Source of the DNA: a virus
Length of the DNA: 64,000 bases
Reading direction: 5' to 3' (one strand)
IMG/VR virus record: IMGVR_UViG_3300015371_000007
Location: 1 to 64,000 of that record
Part shown: piece by piece, positions 2,257 to 28,303 of the stretch
Numbering within the stretch: the first letter of the stretch is position 1
How the letters are laid out: every line of letters begins with the position of its first letter
The notes under the pieces: generated by a model
What the model saw: only the letters and a program-made list of their open reading frames with translations
Databases searched by the model: none
What the model was told of the DNA's origin: nothing
Program-made: the position numbers and the translations under genes

Positions 2257-2730
2257 TTAGATAGGAGCGCGCTGACGGCGCGGCGCGCGTCGACGTGGTG
2301 AAGAGGACGCACGATTCACAGAATCGGCGGCGATCGCGTCGAGGTACGCGATCAGGAGGGCGCGTTCGACGTCGGTCGCTCTTCGCCATCGCTTCAAGTA
2401 CTCCTGCTCCATCAGCGACAATTCAAACTCCTTCCCTTGCAGCAACGGCTCCGCCAGGCGGGCCCAATCCTTATTCACGAGTTTGAAGATCGAGAGGAGA
2501 TTTCCGCCAGTCATCGCTGCGAGTCGGAAGCACTGCGGCATGGTGAGTTTTCCGTCCTTGAGGGCGCGGCTAAACGCGGACGACGCCATCCCGAGCTGCT
2601 TCGCGATGTCTTGGTCCTTCACGCCTCTTAACGTGGTGTTACTCGCACGGCTCTTCGCGTCAAGAAGGTCTCGAATGTATTTCGCGAGAGGTGTTTGAGA
2701 TTTACGCACGGGCTTTGGCTCTCCTTTCAT
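2257..2730 (-). CDS. Lambda-like/XRE transcriptional repressor (candidate immunity repressor)
   Basis: Residues ~38-62 (DQDIAKQLGMASSAFSRALK) form a helix-turn-helix with recognition helix around SSAFSRAL, followed by a helical region. It is divergent from a Cro-like gene across an operator region, the arrangement of phage immunity switches. The annotated ATG is followed at once by AAAGGAGAG, itself a good ribosome site, so translation may really start at the GTG of codon 8 (2709-2707). A leftward -10 TATAAT lies at 2755-2760. No LexA-type autocleavage domain is visible, so induction would need another mechanism. Confidence 0.7.
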   Translation of the reverse strand: MKGEPKPVRKSQTPLAKYIRDLLDAKSRASNTTLRGVKDQDIAKQLGMASSAFSRALKDGKLTMPQCFRLAAMTGGNLLSIFKLVNKDWARLAEPLLQGKEFELSLMEQEYLKRWRRATDVERALLIAYLDAIAADSVNRASSSPRRRAPRRQRAPI

Positions 2731-2903
2731 GGGGGGAGTCGCTCGACGCCCGCGATTATATAACGCACAGAATACGTAGAAAACGTAAATGACGCGGAAA
2801 CGGTTGGAGTTGAGATCCTGTCAACTTTAGTTGGCGAATCCGCAAAAGAGGCGTAGCGTGTCGGACCGTGAAGCGCGGAAGACGCGGGCGAGGCGTCGTG
2901 CAA
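2731..2903. promoter_or_regulatory. Divergent switch region with operators between repressor and Cro-like gene
   Basis: Contains a leftward TATAAT (2755-2760), an inverted repeat TACGT-AGAAA-ACGTA at 2773-2787 and a second dyad CAACT-TT-AGTTG at 2822-2833. On the minus strand the second dyad embeds a TTGACA hexamer (2819-2824). This stretch is A/T-richer than its surroundings. The second dyad resembles the half-sites of the large palindrome at 23448-23471. Operator function is inferred from position and symmetry. Confidence 0.6.
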
Positions 2904-3131
2904 ATGCCCCAAAAGAAGAAAACGCTCATCTCCGAGCTGGAAGCGGTCCGGATGGACAACGACTGGACCTACGAGCAGGTCGCCGACGCCATCAAGAAGG
3001 CGACCGGCCACCGCCGGAACCCGGACTGCTGGCGGAAGCTCTGCACGGGGGAGACCAAGAGCCCCCATTCCCGGACGCTCTACCTCCTTGACGCCTTCCT
3101 GGCGACCGTGAACCGCCGGAGGACGGCGTGA
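2904..3131 (+). CDS. Small Cro-like HTH protein (75 aa)
   Basis: Product begins MPQKKKTLISELEAV; residues 15-60 (DWTYEQVADAIKKATGHR ... CWRKLCTGE) have the spacing of an XRE-type helix-turn-helix. It is the first rightward gene opposite the repressor, so a Cro-like role is likely. ATG 2904 is chosen because upstream codons (GTG at 2898 or further) lie close to the operators; GTG 2898 is possible. Confidence 0.6.
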   Translation: MPQKKKTLISELEAVRMDNDWTYEQVADAIKKATGHRRNPDCWRKLCTGETKSPHSRTLYLLDAFLATVNRRRTA

Positions 3132-3337
3132 CACCCCTCTACGTGGCGCTGCTCGGCGTCAGTCTCTTTGCCGTGCTGCGCGTGCTGGCGTGGCGCAAGG
3201 TGCACCGCCAGCGCACCGACGCCACGTTGGTCATCCATCCGCCCCGCCGGTTCGTCGATGCCGACGGCCGGTCCGACTTTCGTCCCGAGCTGCGCGAGGC
3301 CACCGAGGCGCGTCGCGCGAAGGAGTCGCGCGCATGA
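3128..3337 (+). CDS. Single-pass membrane protein (69 aa)
   Basis: GTG start overlapping the previous stop. Residues 3-22 (PLYVALLGVSLFAVLRVLAW) form one membrane segment, followed by a charged cytoplasmic tail rich in Arg and Glu. The function is unknown; candidates include a superinfection or lysis helper. Confidence 0.6.
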   Translation: MTPLYVALLGVSLFAVLRVLAWRKVHRQRTDATLVIHPPRRFVDADGRSDFRPELREATEARRAKESRA

Positions 3338-4323
3338 CGGTCGGGCTGTCGGCGATTCGCGTGGATGACGACATGCAGGTCCGCGCCGGGATCAACCAGC
3401 AGGTTGTCGAGGAGTATGCCGCGAAGTTACGCGCGGGTGCCAAGTTCCCGCCCATCGTGGTCTTCGCCGACGCGCTGGGGTTCTACATCGCGGACGGCAA
3501 CCATCGCTACCGCGCACACGACCTGGCCGGCCGCACCACCATTGAGGTGGAGCTGCGGCAGGGGACCAAGGCCGACGCGTTGTGGTATGCGCTCGGCGCC
3601 AACAAGGCCCACGGGCTGCAGCTGTCGAAGCAGGATAAACGGCACGCGGTGCTTCGGGCCTTTGCCTCGTTCCCTGACCGTGGCGCCGCGGAGATTGCCG
3701 ACCACGTCGGCTGCAGCGCGCAGTGGGCGTGCATCGTGCGGCGGGGGACGGAAACCCCTAGCGATCGGATCGTCACCCGCGCCGGCCAGGTGCGGATCGC
3801 GTCCAAGCGCGCGGCGATTGAGGCGCACCAACAGATCGAGGTGTTGCTGAAGGACGGCGTGCCCAGCGTCGACATCGTGCGTCGATTGCGCGTCGGGCCG
3901 GATCTGGTGTCGTCGATCAAGCGCCGGTTGAATCTCGGCCGCGACCAGTCGCGCGAGGCCATCGAAGCACGGCGCGCCCGCATCCGTGAGATGGCCGCAG
4001 GCCAATACACCTCGCAACAGATCGCCGACGCGGTGGGCCTGACCGACATTCATGTGCGCGAGGTCGCCCGCCGATTCGGCATCGACATCTCGGCCGATCG
4101 CGCAATGGGCAAGATGTTCCGCCACGATGCCAACCGCATCGTCTCGCGCATCGTGCTCGACGCAGAGAACCTCCTCGAAGGCCTCGGCCTCATCGAGTAC
4201 CGCGATCTGGAGCGGGCGCAGATCCCGGCCTGGCTCACGTCGCTGAAAAAGTGCCGCGAGCAACTCTCGACGTTCATTCGTCGCCTGGGGGAGGAGCAGT
4301 CACACAATGGCGAAGCTGCCTAA
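3334..4323 (+). CDS. ParB/Spo0J N-terminal domain protein with two HTH segments (329 aa)
   Basis: ATG overlaps the previous stop. Residues ~5-95 form a ParB-like domain; the signature ADGNHRY sits at 53-59, in place of the GERR box of plasmid ParB. A helix-turn-helix follows around residues 97-135 (AAEIADHVGCSAQWACIV) and a second around 220-250 (SQQIADAVGLTDIHVREV). Phage proteins of this kind act as DNA-binding regulators, nucleases or CTP-dependent clamps. No ParA partner is seen, so partition is unlikely. It overlaps the next gene, another DGxHR-type protein, by 17 bases. Confidence 0.75.
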   Translation: MTVGLSAIRVDDDMQVRAGINQQVVEEYAAKLRAGAKFPPIVVFADALGFYIADGNHRYRAHDLAGRTTIEVELRQGTKADALWYALGANKAHGLQLSKQDKRHAVLRAFASFPDRGAAEIADHVGCSAQWACIVRRGTETPSDRIVTRAGQVRIASKRAAIEAHQQIEVLLKDGVPSVDIVRRLRVGPDLVSSIKRRLNLGRDQSREAIEARRARIREMAAGQYTSQQIADAVGLTDIHVREVARRFGIDISADRAMGKMFRHDANRIVSRIVLDAENLLEGLGLIEYRDLERAQIPAWLTSLKKCREQLSTFIRRLGEEQSHNGEAA

Positions 4324-9931: not shown

Positions 9932-10090
9932 GTGACGCAGACCGCACGACGCCCACGGGACACGAAGGAACCCATCAGCATTCGGCTCGACCGACAGGTG
10001 CTGCGCGCCTGGCGCGCGACGGGCAAGGGGTGGCAGACGCGGCTGGCCGCAGGCATCGCGCGTCTCAAGCCCGTGCCGGGTGCCCGGTAA
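9932..10090 (+). CDS. BrnA-antitoxin-like small DNA-binding protein (52 aa)
   Basis: GTG seven bases after GGAGG. The C-terminal 30 residues (ISIRLDRQVLRAWRATGKGW then QTRLAAGIARL) closely follow the BrnA pattern 'RLD..VL.WF.A.GKGWQTR.N', a ribbon-helix-helix fold. No BrnT toxin gene is adjacent. Its stop overlaps the integrase start, so it probably acts as a repressor or helper of integrase expression and not as an antitoxin. Confidence 0.65.
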   Translation: MTQTARRPRDTKEPISIRLDRQVLRAWRATGKGWQTRLAAGIARLKPVPGAR

Positions 10091-11223
10091 TGGCCCGCAA
10101 GGATCGCGGCACAAAGATCGCCGAAGGCATCTGGCGCGACGAGTTCGGCTACGCCGTCTCGGTGGCGGTCGGCAGCGGGAAGAACAAGGTACAGCGGGAG
10201 GCCCGCTACCCGTTCGACACGAAGCTCAAGACGATGACCGACTGGCAGGACGAGACGCGCGTGGCGCTGCGAAAGCTGGTGCCCACGCACGGGAAGGGCA
10301 CGCTCGCGGCCGCGGTCGCGACCTACCTCAAGTCGGTCGCCTCGATGCCGACGTACGGGGATCGCGAACGCGACTTGGCGTTGTGGGTGGCGGAGTTCCC
10401 GAATCGCCAGCGGCATTCGATCAAGTCGCACGAGATTTCCGCGGTGCTGCACAAGTGGATAAAGGACGGCTACGCGGCGATGACCGTCATCAATCGGCGC
10501 ACGGCGCTCATGGCGGTCTGGACCGCGCTCGACGGCGCGAAGGCCGTCAACCCGGTTGATGAAGCCTACCGGCCCGACACCGATCCGTTGACGGCGAATG
10601 ACATCCCGTGGCCGACCATCGAGCGCGTGCTCGACGCGGTCGAGGATCGCGGACAAGGCATTCGCGGCCAGAAGCGCACCGACGTAAGCAAGACCAAGAT
10701 CCGGCTGCGGCTGATCGCCTACACCGGCTTGCCGCACAAGCTCGTCAAGCAGATCACGGCGGACGGGATCGATTGGGAGAAGGGCCGGGTGCTCGCAGCG
10801 AAACGGCGCAAGGGCACCGGCGTCGAGGCGCGCTGGCTCCCCATCGCGCCGGAGGCGCTGCGCGCGCTGGAGGACTTCGTCGAGTACGACTGTTTCGGGT
10901 CGTTCTCCAATTCGAGCATGTTGAAGACGTGGCGCCGCGCGTGGCGGTGGGTGCATCCGACCTGGCCGAAGGATAAGAAGATCCCCTGCGTCTACCGGCT
11001 GCGGCATTCCTTCGCGACGGCGACCTACGCCAAGAGCGGGGATGACCGCGGGACGGCACTGCTGCTCATGCACAGCCGCAAGAGCAACATGATCCAGCGC
11101 TACACGCTCGGCGCGGAACCGGAGCGGATGGAGAAATGCGCCGAGGCATTCGCGGACCGGCGCCTGGAACTCGTCAAGGGCGCCGCGAAGCCCAAACCGA
11201 AGCCGAAGCGCAAGGCCGGGTGA
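10090..11223 (+). CDS. int: Phage integrase, tyrosine recombinase (377 aa)
   Basis: An N-terminal arm- and core-binding region (residues 1-190) is followed by a catalytic domain. Box I reads YTGLPHKLVKQI, where the canonical catalytic Arg position is Pro. The later motifs are YRLRHSFAT (Arg kept, first His replaced by Tyr), LLMHSRKSNMIQRYTLG (His kept), and the nucleophile Tyr of RYTLG. The substitutions look like a family feature and not decay, because the frame is intact and attP lies immediately downstream. The C-terminal tail is a Lys/Pro repeat (KPKPKPKR). Confidence 0.85.
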   Translation: MARKDRGTKIAEGIWRDEFGYAVSVAVGSGKNKVQREARYPFDTKLKTMTDWQDETRVALRKLVPTHGKGTLAAAVATYLKSVASMPTYGDRERDLALWVAEFPNRQRHSIKSHEISAVLHKWIKDGYAAMTVINRRTALMAVWTALDGAKAVNPVDEAYRPDTDPLTANDIPWPTIERVLDAVEDRGQGIRGQKRTDVSKTKIRLRLIAYTGLPHKLVKQITADGIDWEKGRVLAAKRRKGTGVEARWLPIAPEALRALEDFVEYDCFGSFSNSSMLKTWRRAWRWVHPTWPKDKKIPCVYRLRHSFATATYAKSGDDRGTALLLMHSRKSNMIQRYTLGAEPERMEKCAEAFADRRLELVKGAAKPKPKPKRKAG

Positions 11224-15890: not shown

Positions 15891-15984
15891 TGGCGGTGAG
15901 GCAGGGATTTGAACCCTGGATACAACTGTTAGGTCGTATAACGGTTTAGCAAACCGCCGCCTTCAGCCTCTCGGCCACCTCACC
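15891..15984 (-). tRNA. tRNA-Ser (GCU anticodon) with encoded CCA
   Basis: On the minus strand the gene begins GGTGAGGTGGCCGAGAGGC and ends CCTCACC-G-CCA; the 7-bp acceptor stem pairs perfectly. The anticodon stem CGGTT/AACCG encloses GCT, and a long variable arm of class II tRNA follows, then a T-arm with GGTTCAAATCC. All parts are intact, so it is probably functional and reads AGC/AGU serine codons. Confidence 0.9.
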
Positions 15985-17377: not shown

Positions 17378-17650
17378 TCAGGGCGCTTCCGCCGCAATCT
17401 TGACCAGCGTGGGTATAGGCTTCTCGACCGCGTCGGTGTAGACCCACTGCGGCTCGCCCCCGTTCACCCAATGCTGAATCCACCCAAGGAGTAGGTTGCG
17501 TTGCGACTTGCCCTCGCGCCGGCACTTCTTCGTGAACTTCTCGCGCAATCCCGGCGGGACGTGCGAGATGTTGATTTGTTTAACGGTCGCGCCTCGCGGC
17601 GTGAACGCGCGGGACCATTGCCGTTGTTTCTTTGCGACTTTTTTCGCCAC
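17378..17650 (-). CDS. Small RHH/CopG-like DNA-binding protein, paralogue of the 24866 gene
   Basis: 90 residues from GTG 17650. Lys-rich start (AKKVAKKQRQW) then SRAFTPRGATVKQINISH, GLREKFTKKCRREGKSQRN and LLLGWIQHWV. The same skeleton (SR-FTP-G-T ... KREG-S-R-LIL--L--W) recurs in the protein at 24866-25048, so the two are paralogues. Strand-helix-helix spacing suggests ribbon-helix-helix binding to operators. The longer frame upstream lies under the next gene. Confidence 0.6.
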   Translation of the reverse strand: MAKKVAKKQRQWSRAFTPRGATVKQINISHVPPGLREKFTKKCRREGKSQRNLLLGWIQHWVNGGEPQWVYTDAVEKPIPTLVKIAAEAP

Positions 17651-17657
17651 GATACAT

Positions 17658-17948
17658 TCACCCTGTCTTTCGGCCGCAGTCGTCACAGACGCCATAGCCG
17701 TCGTCGGTGAAATAGCGCCACTCGTCGATGTGATGCGGATGGCTGTGGCAGATCGCGCAGCTCTCCGGCGGAATCGGCTCCCCTTTCTCTGCGGCCTCGA
17801 CCTGTGCATCGGTCGGGTCCACGATCAGCGTCGGCGCGCCATACCCTACGCGCCGTATTTCAACGCCGCTCACACGGTCGAGCAGCACGCACTCGTTGAG
17901 ATCGTCCCCGGTGGTGTAGACCCGGCCGGCGTAGATGGCGAGCATCAT
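17658..17948 (-). CDS. Zinc-binding hypothetical protein (96 aa)
   Basis: Starts MMLAIYAGRVYTTGDD. The C-terminal third has CAICHSHPHHIDEW and CDDCG, giving a Cys4 site with nearby His. The N-terminal part is beta-rich. The neighbours also carry CxxC sites. Confidence 0.65.
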   Translation of the reverse strand: MMLAIYAGRVYTTGDDLNECVLLDRVSGVEIRRVGYGAPTLIVDPTDAQVEAAEKGEPIPPESCAICHSHPHHIDEWRYFTDDGYGVCDDCGRKTG

Positions 17949-17960
17949 GCCGGCCTCCGG

Positions 17961-18287
17961 TTAGTGTTTGGTGTCGGTGTCATCGGTCCTTGGTCCTCTT
18001 TCTGGACGTGACTCCGGATTCCCCAAGTGCAAGACATCGGTTCCCGCCAGTGTCGCCCCGAGGGTTTCCGCGAAGTGCTGCGCGCAGATCAGGCAGTAGA
18101 TCGGAATGCCTACGGCGAGCACGCGCGGGCCGACGTTCAGCTCCATCTTGCAGGCGGTGCAGGGGCGCGTTTCGGCTCCGTCGCGGTAGAGCGCCGGCAA
18201 GGTAATCTCCGGCGCGATGCGGCGGAGCAATTCGCGCTGGCCTTCGGCAAGCGGGAAGGCCACGGCGATTGGCTCAATCTTGGGCAT
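17961..18287 (-). CDS. Zinc-binding hypothetical protein (108 aa)
   Basis: MPKIEPIAVAFPLAEGQRE start. A central CTACKMELN and CLICAQHF pair separated by ~18 residues looks like a small zinc finger. The C-terminal ~25 residues are charged and disordered. First gene after the -10-like element at 18318-18323. Confidence 0.65.
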   Translation of the reverse strand: MPKIEPIAVAFPLAEGQRELLRRIAPEITLPALYRDGAETRPCTACKMELNVGPRVLAVGIPIYCLICAQHFAETLGATLAGTDVLHLGNPESRPERGPRTDDTDTKH

Positions 18288-18317: not shown

Positions 18318-18371
18318 ACTATAGTCGTTTTACTAGGGATGCGCTGGGTCTTTACTAGCCTTGCGGCTAGT
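18318..18371 (-). promoter_or_regulatory. Leftward promoter/operator region with stem-loop
   Basis: On the minus strand a -10-like TATAGT lies at 18318-18323, about 30 bases before the 17961-18287 gene. Two TTTACTAG elements lie at 18328-18335 and 18351-18358, halves of the palindrome found at 23448 and 27473. A perfect 7-bp stem ACTAGCC/GGCTAGT (18354-18371) has a GCAA tetraloop when read leftward and overlaps the stop codon of the next gene. No good -35 is seen, so activation or repression by a bound protein is likely. Confidence 0.5.
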
Positions 18372-18723
18372 GGGTCTTCGGCGGCGGGCAGGTTTCGCAC
18401 CGCCCGAGGTGCAGAAAGCGGACGCCGTAGCCGAGGTGTTTCCCGCAGGTTTCGCACACGTCTTCCGCCACCTCCCATAGATGGCCGGGTTCGGGCTGGG
18501 GCTGGTCGGCCTCGGTGAAGACGTATTCAATGAGGTAGGCCAAATACCGCGCGTTGTTGGCCTGGCCGAGCGCGCGGTCGATGCGCGCCAAGTTGGGCGC
18601 GACGATTTGCCGCTCAACCTCAGCGGCAAACCGTCCCGTCCCCCGCAGCTCGCGCCAGAGCACAAGCGCCTGCTCGATTTCGGCCTCGGTGAGAAACTGC
18701 GGCAGCGTAACGTGGTTCTTCAT
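18367..18723 (-). CDS. Hypothetical protein with C-terminal zinc ribbon (118 aa)
   Basis: MKNHVTLPQFLTEAEIEQAL start; the helical N-terminal 90 residues are followed by CETCGKHLGYGVRF and CETCPPP, a Cys4 ribbon. The longer frame upstream belongs under a neighbouring gene and is discounted. Confidence 0.65.
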   Translation of the reverse strand: MKNHVTLPQFLTEAEIEQALVLWRELRGTGRFAAEVERQIVAPNLARIDRALGQANNARYLAYLIEYVFTEADQPQPEPGHLWEVAEDVCETCGKHLGYGVRFLHLGRCETCPPPKTH

Positions 18724-22907: not shown

Positions 22908-23351
22908 TTAGAACCTCAACCTTGTCGGACGGCTCGGAACGGCGATGCTGTCCAGGTTGTCGCGGTCGCGGCCCGCATTGCGCTCGGTATAGCTCGGAGG
23001 CACGACGCGCAGCACGTAGCCGCGCGGATCGCCTTGACTGAGAAGAATCCAGCCCGCCGGCAGCACGCCCTTGGCCCGCTGCTCGGCGCGGTAGTCCTCG
23101 ATACGAATGCGCGGGATGCGCTCGTGCGGCTCGGCGGCGTTGGCGCGCACGCGGTGATCGCAGAGGCATGGCCCGCCCGTCGTCGCGGGGCACGGCACGC
23201 GGTCCCGATTGACGTCCGCCGAGCTGCATTCCAGTTCGGCAATCCGCTGCATCGTCGTCGCCGCGCGGAGGAGTACGCGGATCGTTGGCAGGTCGAGGCC
23301 GTTCCGCGTCATGGTGGAAACGAAGTGATCGCGCTCAGCGGCGTAGCTCAT
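22908..23351 (-). CDS. Hypothetical Cys-containing protein (147 aa)
   Basis: First gene of the leftward unit driven from the 23424-23452 promoter. MSYAAERDHFVSTMTRNGLD start; a helical N-terminus, a CPATTGGPCLCDHRV cluster near residue 55, and a beta-rich C-terminus with GWILLSQGDPRGYVLRV. The function is unknown. The longer ATG frame crosses the promoter and is excluded. Confidence 0.6.
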   Translation of the reverse strand: MSYAAERDHFVSTMTRNGLDLPTIRVLLRAATTMQRIAELECSSADVNRDRVPCPATTGGPCLCDHRVRANAAEPHERIPRIRIEDYRAEQRAKGVLPAGWILLSQGDPRGYVLRVVPPSYTERNAGRDRDNLDSIAVPSRPTRLRF

Positions 23352-23413: not shown

Positions 23414-23495
23414 CGACTAGTAAACCATACGCCTCTCGTTTTCTGAAGTCAACTTTACTAGTAAAGTTGACATTGGCTGGCGCGCGGCGCATACT
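23414..23495. promoter_or_regulatory. Symmetric divergent promoter with a 24-bp palindromic operator
   Basis: A perfect 24-bp palindrome (half-site GTCAACTTTACT) at 23448-23471 contains a -35 box on each strand. Rightward: TTGACA 23467-23472, 17-bp spacer, CATACT 23490-23495. Leftward: TTGACT 23452-23447, 17-bp spacer, TATGGT 23429-23424. A further half-site ACTAGTAAA lies at 23416-23424, over the leftward -10. One dimer could thus switch both directions. Operator use is inferred. Confidence 0.7.
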
Positions 23496-23514
23496 CGCGG
23501 GAGAGGTGACAGGC

Positions 23515-23889: not shown

Positions 23890-24353
23890 TGGGGTACTGC
23901 TACTGCGCGCGCACCGGCCGGCTGGCGTGTGACGCCTGCGGGACCGCGAACGGGAAGGTCCGGAAACGGACCTGCCCGCATCGCATCGTGTACGCCGACG
24001 GCGGCAGCGCGCCCTACTGCTCGCCGCCTGCGCTCTGTCCGGAGTGCTACGCCACGCATCGGCCCACGCTGCACGTTGACTGCAAGGACGGCGCAGCTCG
24101 GGCGATGCAGCGGGAGGCCGAGCGCGGCGCGCGCTTCGCCTCGGGCGACTTCGAGGTCCGCACGGCGTGGGGCGCTGGCCCTGCGCTCGGCACGTCGCGC
24201 GTCGAGGTGCCGGCGGGACTGGTCGGCGTGCGCTTCGCCAACCGCGCGGGCGCGGAACGCTTTCACTTGCTGGCGAAAGATCGCTACGCCGGCCAGGGCT
24301 GGCTCAGCGACTATGCGCCGGCGGAGCTGGCCGCGTGGGACGCCAAACCCTAG
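23889..24353 (+). CDS. Zinc-binding hypothetical protein (154 aa)
   Basis: ATG overlaps the previous stop by one base. The N-terminal half has at least eight Cys (CYCARTGRLACDACG, CPHR, YCSPPALCPECY) in two zinc-finger-like groups; the C-terminal half is beta-rich (VPAGLVGVRFANRAGAERF). The function is unknown. Confidence 0.6.
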   Translation: MGYCYCARTGRLACDACGTANGKVRKRTCPHRIVYADGGSAPYCSPPALCPECYATHRPTLHVDCKDGAARAMQREAERGARFASGDFEVRTAWGAGPALGTSRVEVPAGLVGVRFANRAGAERFHLLAKDRYAGQGWLSDYAPAELAAWDAKP

Positions 24354-24386
24354 GATTTGACAATCCTATGATTCGTGTTTTATACT
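24351..24386 (+). promoter_or_regulatory. Promoter with inverted-repeat operator over the -35
   Basis: TTGACA 24357-24362 and TATACT 24381-24386 (18-bp spacer; TTATAC at 17). The -35 lies inside the inverted repeat TAGGATT-TGAC-AATCCTA (24351-24368). The right half and flank recur exactly at 25577-25599, so the same protein probably controls both promoters. Confidence 0.65.
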
Positions 24387-25565: not shown

Positions 25566-25609
25566 CGCGAATCATGGGATTTGACAATCCTATGATTCGC
25601 GTGTAAGCT
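25566..25609 (+). promoter_or_regulatory. Promoter inside a 36-bp near-perfect inverted repeat
   Basis: Two 16-bp arms (CGCGAATCATGGGATT with one mismatch) surround TGAC at 25566-25601. The -35 TTGACA (25581-25586) is at the centre; -10 TAAGCT at 25604-25609 with a 17-bp spacer. Downstream is a GAGGTGAC ribosome site and ATG 25629. The operator is shared with 24351-24368. Confidence 0.65.
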
Positions 25610-27250: not shown

Positions 27251-27472
27251 ATGGACCCCAACGCCAACCTGGCCGAACAGGACCGGATCCTCCGCGCGCG
27301 CCTGCCGGGGGAGCGCACCGACGCCGGCCGGCTCGCCGAGCTGCGCGCGGCGCTCGCCGGCTGGCTGCACCGGGGCGGCTTCCAGCCTGACTGGTCGGCC
27401 TGCCCGACCGCCGCGCGGCACTGGCGGCACGTCCGGGCCTCGCTCGACCGCCGCGCCGCCGGCCGCATTTGA
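27251..27472 (+). CDS. Small hypothetical protein (73 aa)
   Basis: MDPNANLAEQDRILRARLPG start, helical and Arg-rich. Ends directly at the next promoter/operator, and is thus the last gene of the unit that begins at 25629. Confidence 0.5.
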   Translation: MDPNANLAEQDRILRARLPGERTDAGRLAELRAALAGWLHRGGFQPDWSACPTAARHWRHVRASLDRRAAGRI

Positions 27473-27498
27473 CTTTACTAGTAAAGCGGGTGTAAGCT
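27469..27498 (+). promoter_or_regulatory. Promoter with CTTTACTAGTAAAG operator before the Mom-like gene
   Basis: TTGACT 27469-27474, 18-bp spacer, TAAGCT 27493-27498. A perfect 14-bp palindrome CTTTACTAGTAAAG (27473-27486) fills the spacer and is the core of the 23448 palindrome. The GTG start at 27506 is seven bases after the -10, so the transcript would be nearly or fully leaderless. Confidence 0.65.
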
Positions 27499-27505
27499 CC
27501 GAGCC

Positions 27506-28303
27506 GTGAGTTTACACCCCGTCCAACGCTGGCGCGACCGACGCGACAGCTACCGCCGGCCCGACGAACAGATCGCGGCGCACCAGTTCGAGGTGGCCGA
27601 GCTGCCCGACGACACCACGCCCAAGGGCTTCATCCTCCAGCATCACTACAGCGGCAGCTACCCGGCGGCGCGGGTGCGCTTCGGGCTGTACCGCGGGCCG
27701 GCGCTGGTCGGTGTCGCGGTGTTCTCGGTCCCGATGCAGACCAAGGTCCTCACCTCGGTCTTTCCCGGCGACCCGGACGCCTCGGTGGAGTTGGGGCGCT
27801 TCGTCCTCGTGGACGACGTGCCGGGGAATGGAGAGACATGGTTCCTCGCGCGGTGCTTCGCCGGCCTGCGCGCGAAGGGGCTGCGCGGCGTCGTCAGCTT
27901 CTCGGACCCGCTGCCTCGGGCGAGCGCGGACGGACGAACGGTCTTCGCCGGCCACCTCGGCATCATCTACCAGGCGCACAACGGCCGGTACTTGGGACGC
28001 GCCACCGCGCGGACGCTCGACCTCTTGCCCGATGGCCGGGTGTTCTCGGCGCGCGCCCGTCAGAAGGTCCTCGGCGGGGAACGGGGCTGGGTGTACGCGG
28101 CCGCGCAGCTCGAAGCGTTCGGCGCACCGGCTTGCCCCTCGGACCCCGACGCCCGCGCCGCGTGGCTCAAGGCGGCGCTCGCGCGCTACAGCCGCAGCGT
28201 GCGCCATCCGGGCAACCATCGGTATGCGTGGGCGCTGCACGCGAAGGCCGGCATGGTCGGCACGCCCCAGCCTTACCCGAAGTCTCCCGTCCGCCTGTTC
28301 TGA
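27506..28303 (+). CDS. Mom-like DNA adenine modification protein (265 aa)
   Basis: A GNAT-like protein with landmarks GFILQHHYSGSYPAARVRFG (about 42-61), SVELGRFVLVDDVPGNGETW (about 92-111), GVVSFSDPLPR, and GHLGIIYQAHNGRYLGRAT, followed by RTLDLLPDGRVFSARA. This set is typical of the phage Mom-family proteins. Mu Mom converts adenine to a carbamoylmethyl-type modified base and blocks many restriction enzymes. Preceded by its own repressible promoter, as expected for a toxic modification. The start GTG is leaderless-like. Confidence 0.7.
   Translation: MSLHPVQRWRDRRDSYRRPDEQIAAHQFEVAELPDDTTPKGFILQHHYSGSYPAARVRFGLYRGPALVGVAVFSVPMQTKVLTSVFPGDPDASVELGRFVLVDDVPGNGETWFLARCFAGLRAKGLRGVVSFSDPLPRASADGRTVFAGHLGIIYQAHNGRYLGRATARTLDLLPDGRVFSARARQKVLGGERGWVYAAAQLEAFGAPACPSDPDARAAWLKAALARYSRSVRHPGNHRYAWALHAKAGMVGTPQPYPKSPVRLF

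Follow-up and report, generated by a model that had tools for sequence, protein, structure and literature searches.

A palindromic candidate operator shared by two divergent promoters and a mom-like gene in a temperate phage from metagenomes

The putative divergent promoters and their palindrome

The window, the whole 64,000-base stretch of DNA analysed here, spans positions 1-64000 of a virus record of 94,546 bases and derives from a phage that is known from metagenomes only. The phage was called temperate because it encodes an integrase (phrog_1, 7.2e-15) at 10090-11223, and its portal and coat proteins are of the P22 type. Gene calls obtained with a simple codon model place the first predicted ATGs of two divergent gene runs at 23351 (-) and 23515 (+), the latter gene with a Shine-Dalgarno-like GGAGAGG, and a tRNA-Ser gene (gct; 15891-15984, - strand) lies at the distal end of this leftward run. 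The following features mark the divergent region:

23448..23471, no strand assigned: proposed operator A1, GTCAACTTTACTAGTAAAGTTGAC
23467..23495, + strand: rightward promoter, TTGACA 23467-23472, 17-bp spacer, CATACT 23490-23495 (10/12)
23424..23452, - strand: leftward promoter, TTGACT 23452-23447, 17-bp spacer, TATGGT 23429-23424 (9/12)
23416..23424, + strand: extra half-site ACTAGTAAA, covering the -10 box and inferred start of the leftward promoter

At 23448-23471 the 24 bp GTCAACTTTACTAGTAAAGTTGAC read identically on both strands, forming the longest perfect palindrome of the 94.5-kb record, in which the arms of other perfect palindromes never exceed 9 bp. Each end supplies the -35 box of a sigma-70-like promoter, and all the elements that a preliminary description of the site had listed, namely the palindrome with TTGAC ends reading outwards, the 17-bp spacers, TATGGT and CATACT, were recovered in place. 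That account had also called the arrangement perfectly symmetrical, which is true of the palindrome and of the spacing, with inferred starts near 23502 (+) and 23417 (-) that each lie 42.5 bp from the palindrome centre, but not of the hexamers, which differ between the arms (TTGACT/TTGACA and TATGGT/CATACT). The -10 boxes of both promoters are non-consensus. A search for terminator-like sites found none, leaving a role as terminator unsupported for the palindrome.

Simulations were used to estimate how often such an arrangement would arise by chance. When the whole record was simulated 200 times with a Markov-1 model, arms of at least 12 bp appeared in 9 runs; none of 20,000 simulations with the composition of the local 200 bp reached this length. 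One divergent promoter pair with -35 boxes no more than 30 bp apart was observed against 0.01 expected per simulated record, and the 500-bp region held two promoter-like sites against 0.1 expected. By these counts the palindrome alone is moderately unlikely, and the palindrome together with the paired promoters very unlikely.

Further copies of the core and half-site

Parts of the palindrome recur elsewhere in the phage genome, at the following positions:

27473..27486, no strand assigned: operator A2, core CTTTACTAGTAAAG between -35 TTGACT 27469-27474 and -10-like TAAGCT 27493-27498, upstream of the mom-like gene
27506..28303, + strand: gene for a Mom-like DNA modification protein, 265 aa (PF25680 Mom 3.3e-22; phrog_1384 1.4e-25)
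18329..18358, - strand: two CTAGTAAA half-sites at 22-bp spacing (about two helical turns), just upstream of -10-like TATAGT 18325-18320
2820..2829, no strand assigned: isolated 10-mer GTCAACTTTA, equal to the outer arm of the palindrome, between genes 2257-2730 (-) and 2904-3131 (+), of uncertain meaning

The 14-bp core CTTTACTAGTAAAG of the palindrome (23453-23466) has exactly one further copy in the 94.5-kb record, at 27473-27486, where 1.3e-5 further copies would be expected. Among the 14 perfect palindromes with arms of at least 7 bp, two are AT-rich, and both contain this core. The second copy sits between the -35 and -10 boxes, with a 17-18 bp spacer, of a promoter serving a mom-like gene that has a GTG start at 27506 and is apparently nearly leaderless; its Pfam Mom score was 79.6 bits against a gathering cut-off of 27.1. 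Mom produced at the wrong time is toxic in phage Mu (PMC4461284), so joint control of mom and a main phage promoter would be sensible.

The half-site CTAGTAAA is the top over-represented 8-mer of intergenic DNA, with 8 copies in the record compared with 0.12 in Markov-1 simulations. These copies comprise two per palindrome and those at 23417, 18329, 18351 and 84742, the last of which appears to fall in coding sequence. The equal half-sites at 23416 and 23457 are 41 bp apart, or about four helical turns. Downstream of the half-site pair at 18.3 kb lie the genes 17961-18287, 17658-17948 and 17378-17650, and at 18351-18372 the hyphenated repeat ACTAGCC-gcaa-GGCTAGT is joined to a CTAGTAAA half-site, either as a variant of operator A or as a small hairpin. 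Outside the palindrome, the 10-mer GTCAACTTTA was found in the 94.5 kb only at 2820..2829.

These repeats bear directly on how far a single site could reach. One bound dimer had been proposed to control about 8 kb of leftward genes together with the rightward units; the copies of the site elsewhere in the genome and in a relative (L005, below) give good support to two promoters that share one likely operator, but the leftward run probably contains an internal promoter at about 18320-18360, and a single site therefore need not govern all of it. Nor does the site stand alone as a switch, being one of a small set that includes the mom promoter and the 18.3-kb sub-operon. The palindrome thus probably belongs to a small regulon of the phage, of a kind already familiar, rather than representing a new type of switch.

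Conservation of the region in a relative

A terminase search recovered six close relatives, mostly short contigs, of which L005 alone (a 35.7-kb contig) covered the region. Its promoters occupy the equivalent places:

L005 3966-3937, - strand: leftward promoter TTGACA-18-CATACT, equivalent to 23424..23452 of the window
L005 3992-4020, + strand: rightward promoter TTGACA-17-TATGCT, equivalent to 23467..23495 of the window

This back-to-back pair accounts for the only promoter-like sites found in the first 12 kb of L005. Between the promoters lies TTTAGTAGTAAAG followed by TTGACA, and within this stretch TAGTAAAGTTGACA is identical to window positions 23459-23472; this 14-base string is the longest common to both regions, whereas none longer than 12 arose in 2000 simulations. 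The -35 boxes of L005 are 25 bp apart compared with 14 in the window, a difference of eleven bases, or about one helical turn. The left arm of its palindrome is degenerate and the core does not overlap the left -35 box, with the distance from core to right promoter unchanged from the window. With the boxes farther apart and a divergent left arm in L005, conservation extends to the core of the operator and to the back-to-back arrangement but not to exact symmetry, which makes compactness unlikely to be essential.

No counterparts of the first genes flanking the L005 promoters were detected in the window, whereas genes farther out have counterparts, indicating stronger conservation of the promoter region than of the genes directly next to it. 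With a single relative, and a 35.7-kb contig that may be a fragment, absences in L005 constitute weak evidence.

Wider searches returned little beyond this record. The closest isolated phages gave no DNA match to the region, only chance plasmid fragments, and a collection scan with the 14-bp string was unspecific. A 19-bp pattern matched twice beyond the L005 record, in AT-richer unrelated contigs, and both matches were rejected as chance. The proteins encoded at 17378, 22353 and 17658, searched against viral contigs, matched the L005 record only, and a terminase search of species genomes found no prophage relatives.

Candidate binding proteins and a second candidate operator class

Two small paralogous proteins, whose operons each begin with a different operator class, emerged as candidate binders:

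17378..17650, - strand: small putative Arc/ribbon-helix-helix-like protein, paralogue of 24866, about 64% conserved in L005
24866..25048, + strand: paralogue of 17378 and Arc-like (ribbon-helix-helix) repressor, encoded in the operon that follows B1 (phrog_6506 Arc-like repressor, 7.3e-5)
24351..24368, + strand: operator B1, TAGGATTtgacAATCCTA, with -35 TTGACA 24357-24362 of an 11/12 promoter at its centre
25575..25592, + strand: operator B2, TGGGATTTGACAATCCTA, one change from TAGGATTtgacAATCCTA, inside the longer hyphenated palindrome CGCGAATCATGGGATTtgacAATCCTATGATTCGCG

The two proteins share 37% identity over 54 aa (E=8e-12). The 17378 protein gave no significant match to a known repressor family or solved structure; its model is a helix-helix unit of low confidence (pLDDT 67), and a fold search returned no significant PDB match. 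The model of the 24866 protein was likewise of low confidence (pLDDT 68) and without a significant fold match, its non-significant matches including Arc, AmrZ and AvtR. Operator class B, the inverted repeat TAGGATT-tgac-AATCCTA with a central -35 TTGACA, occurs at two rightward promoters, and the B2 extension CGCGAATCATGGGATTtgacAATCCTATGATTCGCG is a 36-bp hyphenated palindrome.

Among the predicted DNA-binding proteins that were tested, 17378 alone was present in both the window record and L005, and neither the 24866 paralogue nor operator class B was found in the L005 record, a 35.7-kb contig that is perhaps a fragment. Gene and operator positions, together with joint presence or absence across two records of which one is probably incomplete, suggest that operator A belongs with 17378 and operator B with 24866. 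Among the three candidate binders named earlier (2257, 17378 and 24866), 17378 would be the best fit for operator A; 24866 is better matched to operator class B, and 2257 resembles an HTH repressor of the early region. The intergenic segment 2731-2903, between the divergent HTH genes 2257-2730 and 2904-3131, probably belongs to an early immunity region.

Proposed regulation and alternatives

The analysis shows the sequences and where they lie, their enrichment, the recurrence at mom and a partial conservation in one relative; from these we infer promoter activity, repression, the identity of the binder and timing. We put at about 0.55 the probability that the palindrome is the main operator of a dimeric phage repressor, probably the Arc-like 17378 protein, acting over both arms and mom. 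The bound dimer would cover both -35 boxes and keep silent the leftward genes (23351 to about 15621) and the rightward genes (from 23515). The same repressor would occupy the identical core between the mom -35 and -10 boxes, along with the half-sites that lie over the leftward start (23416) and ahead of the 18.3-kb sub-operon, and its release would switch on the two arms and the DNA-modification gene simultaneously. With the 17378-17650 protein as the likeliest binder, the repressor would also repress its own operon.

The same regulon and sites might possibly, if less plausibly, be read by a different protein: the HTH protein of 2257-2730, the ParB-like protein of 3334-4323, the Arc-like 24866 protein or a host regulator. 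The 10-mer GTCAACTTTA does occur once more between the HTH genes 2257 and 2904, and 2257 weakly matches phage transcriptional regulators, but the full core is not present near either gene. ParB-like proteins are also encoded by the phage, and their family includes operator binders such as KorB; L005 keeps the site, yet none of these candidates has a closer match there than the homologue of 17378. The 24866 protein lies behind a different operator class, and the motif was not found as a published operator in the literature searched.

A more elaborate form of the Arc-like repressor reading, which we regard as speculative and rather unlikely, is that the two Arc-like paralogues and their respective operator classes (A, CTTTACTAGTAAAG; B, TAGGATTtgacAATCCTA) act as a paired circuit in place of a CI/Cro-type switch for the middle and late arms, with one dimer at A gating both arms and the Mom-type gene. 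If this were true, anti-restriction modification would be co-released with the lytic programme.

Improbable, in our assessment, is activation from the palindrome, in which a dimer at -42.5 would contact RNA polymerase on either side and both promoters would depend on it because of their poor -10 boxes. Classical activators, too, can be centred at -42.5, and here the palindrome centre lies 42.5 bp from each inferred start, with -10 boxes that are non-consensus and a core in L005 that keeps its distance to the right promoter. DriD, moreover, activates from a site overlapping the -35 box of a bidirectional promoter (PMC12340889). Against this, near-consensus TTGAC(A/T) -35 boxes seldom require such help, the mom core between -35 and -10 with its 17-18 bp spacer suits repression, and a half-site lies over the leftward start. 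Repression is preferred on these same placements: the palindrome over both -35 boxes, the core between the mom boxes and the half-site at the leftward start.

That the palindrome is a by-product of two back-to-back -35 boxes and chance, with no dedicated binding protein, is very improbable: 10 of its 24 bp belong to the -35 boxes and arms of 12 did occur in 9 of 200 whole-record simulations, but the 14-bp core exceeds the boxes and recurs exactly at another promoter (1.3e-5 expected), and both the half-site enrichment and the conservation in L005 speak for a specific site.

Comparison with known systems

The locus combines two sigma-70-type promoters, an overlapping palindrome, further copies of the site and an integrase, as in phages whose divergent promoters share an operator. 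This general principle is already well known, and the suggestion that few such compact two-way switches exist is doubtful given the precedents of BPs, lambda-like and DriD promoters.

Small dimeric repressors, divergent promoters and autoregulation characterize P22 Arc/Mnt and lambda-type operator regions. The present phage resembles them in its divergent promoters, in the small dimeric repressor and autoregulation expected, and in its P22-type capsid and portal; it differs in having two Arc-like paralogues, two operator classes and an operator distant from the repressor gene, and the likeness is drawn without a claim of sequence membership.

The nearest described system is the 33-34 intergenic region of mycobacteriophage BPs, where PR and Prep are associated with the repressor gp33 and a 12-bp palindromic operator (PMC4557955); the comparison is by analogy, with no homology of binder or operator claimed. 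In both temperate phages the promoters diverge, the operator is a short palindrome, a half-similar site covers the second promoter's start, and a few other intergenic regions carry identical copies of the operator (PMC4557955). The BPs palindrome, however, lies between the -10 and -35 boxes of one promoter rather than across both -35 boxes, and its operator, CGACATATGTCG, has binding proven by footprinting, whereas ours is a candidate operator (PMC4557955). In Caulobacter, the host WYL-domain activator DriD, which responds to ssDNA, likewise uses a pseudo-palindromic site overlapping a -35 box between divergent units, with a different motif and a different protein class (PMC12340889).

In the literature searched, the operator motif was not found as a known operator, the string appearing only in papers with unrelated titles. 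If the proposed regulation is correct, it would provide a specific regulon open to testing in a group of uncultured temperate phages, with an operator sequence that the literature searched does not contain.

Control of mom in phage Mu involves the activator C, OxyR/Dam and Com (PMC4461284). The present phage likewise appears to hold a Mom-family DNA-modification gene under special control, as is plausible given Mom toxicity, but here through a candidate palindromic operator common to mom and a divergent promoter (PMC4461284). The Mom-type gene would then be silenced until the lytic programme by a route other than that of Mu. Relatives of the Mom-like protein at about 60% identity occur in 20 or so viral contigs, while the isolated phages listed match at only about 25-40%. 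Operator A is absent from the relatives at about 60% identity. One of these contigs (L039) carries a different palindrome, TTGCTAGTTCGACTAGCAA, at about 776-794, shortly upstream of its own mom-like gene, and operator control of mom may therefore have arisen more than once.
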